A stretch of 64,000 nt of DNA from Celerinatantimonas diazotrophica (lineage in GTDB: Bacteria; Pseudomonadota; Gammaproteobacteria; Enterobacterales; Celerinatantimonadaceae): positions 1 to 64,000 of the forward strand of contig NZ_SMGD01000019.1 of NCBI RefSeq assembly GCF_004339545.1, read 5' to 3'. The number at the start of each line of letters is the position of its first letter. Position 1 is the stretch's first letter. Under the pieces are notes generated by a model. That model was not told the origin of the DNA and did no database searches. It saw nothing but the letters and a program-made list of their open reading frames with translations. Made by a program: the position numbers and the translations under genes. Positions 8,406 to 46,876 of this stretch are shown here, piece by piece.

Positions 8406-8587
8406 AACTCAAAATTGGCACAGCCAAACCTTTCAGCAAAAAAGATAAAAATCACAAACTGATTAACATCTCTCAACGTCGCGACCATACGCGATTAATT
8501 CCCGATGTGACAGTCTTGCTATGGACCGCTCACTTCAGATTAGGCACAGCGCATTATTTTGCACGCGATAGCAAATGTGAACAAGTC

Positions 8588-8615
8588 TGCACAGGTGGAC
8601 ATTTGTGTATATAAT
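8588..8615 (+). promoter_or_regulatory. Putative purEK promoter
   Basis: TGCACA (8588-8593), 16 bases, then TATAAT (8610-8615), 43 bases before the purE start. Immediately downstream (8614-8630) is ATGCCAATCGTTTCGAT, an imperfect PurR-box-like sequence carrying one extra base relative to the consensus. The promoter is reasonable; the PurR site is only suggestive. Confidence 0.45.
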
Positions 8616-8658
8616 GCCAATCGTTTCGATATAAGCAGCAAACTCATAGGAGTCGGAA

Positions 8659-9144
8659 ATGAAAGTCGGAATTATTATGGGCTCTAAGTCCGACTGGCCA
8701 ACCATGTTGCATGCCGCCACCATGTTGGACCAGTTTAACATCGCATATGAAACCAAAGTCGTCTCGGCTCATCGCACCCCCCAATTGTTAGCCGACTACG
8801 CACAAAGCGCCAACGAGCGTGGCATTAAAGTGATTATTGCCGGGGCCGGCGGAGCCGCACATTTGCCCGGAATGTGTGCCGCCTTTACTTCGCTCCCCGT
8901 TTTAGGGGTTCCGGTTAAATCACGAGCACTCAAAGGGATGGATTCGCTGTTATCCATTGTGCAAATGCCTAAAGGTGTGGCCGTTGGAACCTTAGCTATC
9001 GGCGATTCAGGCGCTGCCAATGCCGGGCTGTTAGCCGCGCAAATCTTGGCAACAAGCGATCCTGAACTCATGAAAAAGATTGATGCATTCCGCCAAGAGC
9101 AGACGGAGCAAGTTCTTTCTCATCCCGACCCAAGCGAGGAGTAA
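8659..9144 (+). CDS. purE: N5-carboxyaminoimidazole ribonucleotide mutase
   Basis: Class I PurE, converting N5-CAIR to CAIR in purine synthesis. Seen: GSKSDWPTM (8-16), SAHRTP (41-46) and [12 protein letters not shown], the substrate-binding loops. 161 residues, normal. Ribosome site AGGAG before ATG 8659. The gene ends two bases before purK, whose own ribosome site GAGGAG lies in the purE tail, so the two are translationally linked. Confidence 0.96.
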
Positions 9145-20653: not shown

Positions 20654-20713
20654 CAACGACCTCGTTGGTGAAACAATGCCACTGCATTTCCAGACAGAAT
20701 AGCCCAATCAACC

Positions 20714-20809
20714 ACTAGGGACTGTTGACCTTTGGTGGTTGAGTTTTGTTCAAATTAAACGCATTTTGAACGCGGCGCCCCCTGCGTCGCTTAATGAGTT
20801 AAGCAAGCA
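20714..20809. mobile_element. Truncated copy of the IS5-like element
   Basis: CTAG (20714-20717) followed by 92 bases that match the inverted right end of the 410-670 element with two mismatches. The similarity ends sharply at AAGCAAGCA (20809), 18 bases before the stop of the alpha-galactosidase gene, and no second terminal repeat is seen. It marks the left edge of the galactoside cluster. Confidence 0.75.
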
Positions 20810-44547: not shown

Positions 44548-44766
44548 ATGGCTGTTTTTTTATTAGCCTTTGTACTGTTTTTAATCATCTCATTATTGTT
44601 ATCCCTTGGCGTATTAGCCCATCGCAAGCCCATTCAAGGGAGCTGTGGAGGATTATCAAGTATTGGAGTTGATCGAGTTTGCGACTGTGAAACACCGTGT
44701 GAAGAACACGCCAAGTTGTATCAAATTAGTGAACCTGAACAGTGCCAGAACACACCAGAAAAATAA
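44548..44766 (+). CDS. nqrM: Na(+)-NQR maturation protein NqrM
   Basis: 72 residues: one N-terminal membrane helix (3-22), then HRKPIQGSCGG and CDCETPC, the four conserved cysteines of NqrM (DUF539). NqrM delivers iron to the Cys4 centre of Na+-translocating NADH:quinone reductase. A ribosome site GAGGAGG precedes ATG 44548. In many species it follows nqrF-apbE, but here it is alone. Its 3' half from 44670 lies inside a tandem duplication. Confidence 0.9.
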   Translation: MAVFLLAFVLFLIISLLLSLGVLAHRKPIQGSCGGLSSIGVDRVCDCETPCEEHAKLYQISEPEQCQNTPEK

Positions 44767-45037
44767 TACCATCAGCAATGAGCTACTCAGGGCCATTGAG
44801 GAATGGGGCAAAGCATTTCTAACGCCCAGACAACCAAGACGGGGCAGGTGTTATCTCACCCCCCGCCTCAATCTCCACGCCATTAACTGAAACAGCCCAT
44901 GTATACTTAGCGCTATCTTATGGCCGTATTATCAGTGGCTCAGTCAACCGTGTGTGGTTGTGGCTTTAATGGACCTGCCTATTCCACCACGTTTAGAGTG
45001 TTTATCCCGATGAATAATCCATGTATGATACCGCTCA
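44670..45037. repeat. Tandem duplication, copy 1
   Basis: 368 bases starting inside nqrM (codon 41) and including its stop. Repeated immediately downstream with one substitution (T/C near 44934 and 45304) and a 2-base insertion. Apart from nqrM no real gene is visible; open frames at 44645-44890 and 44920-45258 are duplicated shadows of each other. Confidence 0.92.
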
Positions 45038-45134
45038 TGATCGAGTTTGCGACTGTGAAACACCGTGTGAAGAACACGCCAAGTTGTATCAAATTAGTGA
45101 ACCTGAACAGTGCCAGAACACACCAGAAAAATAA
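45038..45134 (+). pseudogene. nqrM: nqrM 3' fragment in the duplicated copy
   Basis: Ninety-seven bases identical to nqrM codons 41-72 and its stop. They lack the start and membrane helix, so no product is expected. It arose as part of the tandem duplication. Confidence 0.85.
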
Positions 45135-45407
45135 TACCATCAGCAATGAGCTACTCAGGGCCATTGAGGAATGGGGCAAAGCATTTCTAACGCCCAGACA
45201 ACCAAGACGGGGCAGGTGTTATCTCACCCCCCGCCTCAATCTCCACGCCATTAACTGAAACAGCCCATGTATACTTAGCGCTATCTTATGGCCGTATTAT
45301 CAGCGGCTCAGTCAACCGTGTGTGGTTCAGTGGCTTTAATGGACCTGCCTATTCCACCACGTTTAGAGTGTTTATCCCGATGAATAATCCATGTATGATA
45401 CCGCTCA
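45038..45407. repeat. Tandem duplication, copy 2
   Basis: 370 bases, nearly identical to 44670-45037, offset 368 and then 370 after a 2-base insertion near 45329. The near identity indicates a recent event or ongoing gene conversion. The remaining 113 bases to the MATE gene are single copy and hold its promoter. Confidence 0.92.
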
Positions 45408-45520
45408 TTTGGCAATAACAGGTCAATAAGTTGGTTACCAATCTGATTCTTTATTAGATCGATCAAGAACAATCCCACACCCAAAAACATGCATTTCCAA
45501 GCCGCAAATTTTACAAATAA

Positions 45521-46876
45521 ATGAATTTAAATGTAGAGACACAATCTAGCATGAAGCATTTAGCGAAACAGCTTTACCGTATGACTTGGCCGATGATCTT
45601 CGGGGTACTGGCACTGATGAGTTTTCAATTGATTGACAGTGCTTTTATCGGTCAACTCGGCGTGGTACCACTGGCGGTTCAAGGCTTTACCCTACCCGTT
45701 CAAATGGTGATGATTGGTTTACAGGTTGGTCTAGGCATTGCCACGACGGCCGTGATTGCTAAAGCATTAGGCGCACACCGACAGCAGTATGCCAAGCAAC
45801 TAGGGGGACTGATTGTAGCAATGGGAAGCGCCGGAATGGCGTTCGTTTGCGTGGTCATTTATCTACTCCGAGACAGCATATTACAACTTCTGGGAGCAGG
45901 GAGTTCTGTAGCACTTATCGTAGATAGCTACTGGCGCTGGTGGCTCGCCAGTGTCTGGCTCAGCGCCTTCATCTATTTTCTCTACAGCGTCAGTCGGGCC
46001 AATGGCAATACCAAGCTCCCCGGAATGGTGATGGTATTAACCAGCCTACTCAATCTGGCCCTCGATCCACTGTTTATATTTGTATTTAAATTGGGCATTA
46101 ACGGTGCAGCAATCGCCACGGTTATCGCTTTTACGATAGGTATTTTCATCGTTGCGCCCAAATTACTGGCTCAACATTGGATCTTTTTTGATTGGCATGA
46201 TCTCAATATCAAACGCAGCTTACTTGATATTTTGCACATTATGGGGCCAGCGATGCTTAGCCAACTGATGCCGTCTTTATCATCCATGTTAGCGACCAAA
46301 TTACTTGCCTCTTATGGCACAGCAGCCGTCGGGGCATGGGCACTAGGCGCTCGCTATGAACTATTCTCAATTGTGGCGATCCTAGCTCTGACCATGTCAT
46401 TACCACCCTTTGTCTCACGTCTGCTTGGACAGCGCAAAATGGCCGATATCCGTACCCTCGTTCATTGTGCCTTGATCTTTGTTCTAGGGTTTCAACTGGT
46501 GATTGCTCTGATCACCTTTGCCATTGCCCCGCAACTCACCCATCTGATGACTAGTGCCGAAACCGTCGCTCGCATTTTACATCACTATCTGTTGATCGTG
46601 CCATTTAGCTTTGGCTTACTTGGTACCTGCATGATCATGGTGTCCGTTGCCAATGCACTGGGTAAATCCTATGTAGCACTCATGATCTCTATATTCCGAC
46701 TATTCGTGTTCTATCTACCATGTCTGTGGCTGGGTGCCTATCTGGGAGAACTCCATGGGGCCTTTTTTGGGGCTTTAGTGGGCAATTTACTCGCGGGAAC
46801 AGCGTCTTATCTCATCTACTTAAAAATGCTCAACAAGCTAACGGCTACCCTCCCGGCAAATGCGGCAACTCAATAA
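45521..46876 (+). CDS. MATE family efflux transporter
   Basis: 451 residues, twelve membrane segments in two homologous halves (DSAFIGQLGVVPLAVQGF and the later MLATKLLASYGTAAVGAWALG). It exports cationic drugs or metabolites using Na+ or H+; the substrate cannot be told. Start ambiguous: ATG 45521 or ATG 45551 (MKHLAKQLYRMTWP), neither with a strong ribosome site. Confidence 0.88.
   Translation: MNLNVETQSSMKHLAKQLYRMTWPMIFGVLALMSFQLIDSAFIGQLGVVPLAVQGFTLPVQMVMIGLQVGLGIATTAVIAKALGAHRQQYAKQLGGLIVAMGSAGMAFVCVVIYLLRDSILQLLGAGSSVALIVDSYWRWWLASVWLSAFIYFLYSVSRANGNTKLPGMVMVLTSLLNLALDPLFIFVFKLGINGAAIATVIAFTIGIFIVAPKLLAQHWIFFDWHDLNIKRSLLDILHIMGPAMLSQLMPSLSSMLATKLLASYGTAAVGAWALGARYELFSIVAILALTMSLPPFVSRLLGQRKMADIRTLVHCALIFVLGFQLVIALITFAIAPQLTHLMTSAETVARILHHYLLIVPFSFGLLGTCMIMVSVANALGKSYVALMISIFRLFVFYLPCLWLGAYLGELHGAFFGALVGNLLAGTASYLIYLKMLNKLTATLPANAATQ

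Follow-up and report, generated by a model that had tools for sequence, protein, structure and literature searches.

Analysis of a 64-kb stretch of DNA (hereafter the window) revealed a head-to-tail direct repeat, in which a 368-nt segment at positions 44670-45037 recurs as a 370-nt segment at positions 45038-45407. We consider it likely that the repeat arose by a single local duplication through near-homology-free recombination, that the event was recent, and that the extra copy is most likely a neutral passenger. Read in this way it is an ordinary small tandem duplication, probably recent and neutral, and another natural case in which the joint has almost no homology. Larger significance would follow only if the copy number of the repeat varied and changed the expression of the efflux pump encoded downstream.

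Structure of the repeat and its junction

Copy 1 (44670-45037, plus strand) comprised codons 42-72 of an nqrM gene and the 271 nt that follow its stop codon; the first base of the copy is the third base of nqrM codon 41. Copy 2 (45038-45407, plus strand) differed from copy 1 by one substitution and two extra bases. When the copies were aligned over their full length, the single mismatch was a T/C difference at unit position 267 and the single gap was a CA dinucleotide present in copy 2 only, leaving exact runs of 266, 23 and 78 nt common to both copies. This alignment bore out the original prediction of a tandem duplication of about 370 bases starting inside nqrM, its copies set apart by a single substitution and a 2-base indel, and the small number of differences agrees with its description of the event as recent. 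The copies were adjacent, in the same orientation and near-identical, and the unit extended from the interior of a gene into the adjoining sequence, joined with next to no homology, as in a local tandem duplication. Gene conversion could be an alternative cause of the likeness between the copies.

This tandem pair was the only near-identical direct repeat of at least 40 nt reported in the 64-kb window, the copies of the other two direct-repeat families being 66-78% identical; chance was therefore excluded as the source of the repeat. The pair at 44670-45407 was absent from the listing of Tandem Repeats Finder, run with a longest period of 500. The window also contained a 97-nt inverted repeat (580-676 and 20713-20809) with 98% complementary arms 20 kb apart, and no tRNA genes were found within it.

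At the junction, one base was common to both parental ends. To gauge the overlap expected by chance, 20,000 random site pairs lying 300-450 nt apart in the window were compared; 56% shared no base and 28% shared one. The joint thus gives no sign of guiding homology, and illegitimate recombination or template switching is the favoured route. Using no more than 1 nt of microhomology, such an event would have duplicated, head to tail, one segment made up of the last 31 codons of the accessory nqrM and the adjoining 271 nt of the gap. With the intact gene located upstream, nqrM would have stayed whole, and a spare nqrM tail with its spacer would have been placed in the gap before the downstream MATE gene. 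Only two small differences would have arisen since, which points to a recent event, and the extra copy is most likely a neutral passenger.

The available text of PMC11111574 mentions natural bacterial duplications that arise independently of sequence identity, and its reference list includes Shimizu et al. 1997 on duplication without sequence identity. The repeat described here resembles these in its head-to-tail copy and its essentially homology-free joint. In contrast, the constructs in the available text of that study had 1.6-kb units with 9-bp microhomology borders, compared with 0.37 kb and a 1-base overlap here; they also captured a promoter for a selected marker gene, whereas our unit holds no complete gene and no promoter was detected in it.

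We also considered whether the genome carries one copy, two variants of which were joined by the assembler. The assembly is a draft of 19 contigs, the repeat exceeds many short reads in length and the copies differ slightly, all of which would suit such an error. However, the site lies approximately 44.7 kb inside a contig of 171,519 bases, and an overlap error is unlikely to arise at a 1-base overlap without reads across the join. An overlap of one parental base is too small to have produced a spurious join, and it is therefore probable that reads spanned the junction. An artefact is accordingly unlikely by inference from the sequence, and we give it only a small chance, although the copy number could have been miscounted from short reads in a 19-contig draft.

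The intact nqrM gene and the frame made by the junction

The nqrM gene from which the repeat starts (44548-44766, plus strand) was intact, encoding 72 amino acids. It matched PF04400 over residues 22-62 (E = 1.2e-18) with 67.1 bits against a curated cut-off of 22, which places it in the family, and GAGGAGG was located just upstream of its ATG. A second nqrM was identified elsewhere in the genome (G000:C1:169625-169810, within positions 8587-8853 of locus L073), immediately after nqrF in a set of genes ordered nqrA-F. The nqr gene names at this locus rest on sequence similarity; the naming of nqrD and nqrE was supported by PF02508 matches in the same places. Inspection by eye revealed GSCGG and CDC..PC cysteine motifs common to the NqrM encoded at 44548-44766 and its nqr-linked paralogue. 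The claim that nqrM is separated from any nqr operon therefore held for the gene at 44548-44766, which lies apart from nqr genes because it is a second paralogue, but not for the genome's other nqrM, which adjoins nqrF. According to the available text of PMC12174285, the V. cholerae nqrM is part of the nqr operon; in comparison, the gene at 44548-44766 lies away from nqr genes and copy 2 holds only a tail fragment.

Possession of two nqrM genes was not rare. Among 394 sampled genomes of the order, 305 carried nqrM, and 35 of these 305 had two matches (counted from the table); no match was found in the 14 control genomes. Within the family, two paralogues were present in this genome and two in the other member of the genus, compared with one in each of the 10 family genomes outside the genus. 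The possibility that the extra nqrM is the partner of an extra pump complex was rejected: the PF02508 count was 6 in all but one of the 12 family genomes, which had 4, and nine genomes combined a count of 6 with a single nqrM, so that the extra nqrM does not track an extra complex. As a separate observation, nifH exceeded its cut-off in 11 of the 12 family genomes, and at G000:C1:7975-19468 a nifH match over the cut-off and two Rnf-Nqr family genes lay no more than about 12 kb apart. This proximity suggests a nitrogen-fixing organism in which an Rnf complex is linked to nif genes.

The junction itself made a frame of 37 codons (45021-45134, plus strand), in which six codons encoding MYDTAH precede the last 31 nqrM codons. 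Copy 2 had been described as carrying a headless nqrM end; it does hold only codons 42-72, and PF04400 had two matches in this genome rather than three, but the junction supplies an in-frame ATG and five further codons. The frame begins with this ATG and is open throughout, and could be read as a new short gene in which the added codons are fused to the cysteine-bearing NqrM tail to give a soluble 37-residue protein. Several observations argue against this. No Shine-Dalgarno-like sequence was visible by eye upstream of 45021, in contrast to the GAGGAGG of nqrM. The NqrM N-terminal helix and the first cysteine motif, GSCGG, are missing from the copy 2 fragment and from the frame that contains it. 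By our own reasoning, an in-frame junction is expected by chance one time in three. The frame is probably untranslated, judging from these features, and we regard a new gene as extremely improbable.

The MATE gene, its leader and the content of the unit

Downstream of the repeat lies a MATE-family efflux transporter gene (45521-46876, plus strand; PF01554, E = 2e-35) with candidate starts at 45521 and 45551. The gap from nqrM to the first candidate start was 754 nt; a single-copy version would be 384-386 nt. The last 113 nt of this gap (45408-45520, plus strand) are unduplicated and AT-rich, with 34.5% G+C compared with 46% for the window. The nearest relatives found for the MATE gene were seven Vibrio loci with 57-58% identity, and the other genus member had no close counterpart (best E = 6.5e-9); the gene may have been acquired here or lost there. 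A shared nqrM-MATE block was rejected as an explanation, since none of 21 loci with MATE relatives (3.3-17.4 kb each) gave nqrM at E <= 1e-3 by tblastn, a search that recovered nqrM in 5/5 control loci.

The original prediction placed the repeat in the leader of the MATE gene and proposed that copy number may alter pump expression through expansion and contraction. The first step is sound in principle: recombination could take place between the tandem exact runs of 266 and 78 nt, and 113 nt separate the end of the repeat from the first candidate MATE start. The effect on expression gained no support from the scans. Between 44400 and 45600, no terminator-like sites were detected, against 0.9 expected from shuffled sequence, and the single promoter-like site found (3.4 expected) fell outside the unit, on the minus strand. 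No plus-strand promoter-like site was present in the unit or in 45408-45520, and the Rfam scan returned no match above threshold. A small RNA was rejected as a candidate; the hits to sR42 and SCARNA7 were sub-threshold (E = 1.2 and 1.6) and both outside the duplicated unit. A structured leader was rejected likewise, with fold z-scores for the copy 2 spacer of 0.07 and -0.01 on the two strands, the same as shuffles. The absence of consensus sites leaves room for possible regulatory elements of an unrecognised kind in the unit.

The extent of the unit bears on the same question. It excludes the start and upstream DNA of nqrM, the 113 nt that adjoin the MATE gene, and the MATE gene itself. The available text of PMC11111574 describes how an acquired but silent gene can become active when a tandem duplication captures a promoter; with neither the nqrM start, its upstream DNA nor any part of the MATE gene in the unit, this route does not apply here. 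The MATE promoter would more likely lie in the unduplicated 45408-45520 stretch. An effect of the repeat on MATE expression is possible and nothing points to one, and a leader that tunes the pump by varying in copy number seems to us improbable. Even when taken together, a young copy-number-variable leader adjusting a possibly acquired MATE pump and a short soluble NqrM-tail protein born at the junction would account for the repeat with very low probability. The neutral duplication remains our preferred reading.

A decayed gene in the spacer was rejected as a further candidate: five frames of the 25 listed were scanned, and the best matches were sub-threshold (Pfam E = 0.11, PHROG E = 0.35). 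A 75-codon frame (45191-45415) was open across copy 2, whereas the 2-base indel interrupts it in copy 1. It had no Pfam or PHROG family match above threshold, and when compared with the 12 family genomes at E <= 1, seven gave matches, consisting of its own copies and six at E = 0.24-0.92.

Relatives of the unit in other genomes

At E <= 0.001, the unit was located at one place in its own 3.97-Mb genome. Beyond its nqrM part, no match was detected in the 11 other family genomes. The one genome of the other genus member matched the nqrM part only (73% identity), with unrelated sequence after nqrM, and the 10 family genomes outside the genus had no match to the unit. Searches of plasmids and phages revealed no blastn match to 44670-45430 and no tblastn match to the 75-codon frame. 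On these grounds we rejected both a dispersed or mobile element, given the one genomic place and the lack of non-nqrM matches in the 11 family genomes, plasmids or phages, and a plasmid or phage origin of the unit. Exact-pattern searches, which would miss diverged relatives and may leave out records of the genome itself, found no match to a 33-base piece in genome contigs and none to the 31-base junction in viral contigs.

An order-wide DNA search with positions 45100-45560 as the query gave matches in 4 of 394 genomes at E <= 0.001, the genome itself included. The three non-self matches covered 29-37 query bases, with per-genome E values from 2.6e-5 to 9.2e-4, and were attributed to chance, given that 394 genomes were searched. 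Of these matches, the best was the only one inside the unit. It involved 28 of 31 bases near the unit end (L069 1501-1531, in one genome of the order) and overlapped the start of an ispB-like frame; this similarity is probably due to chance.
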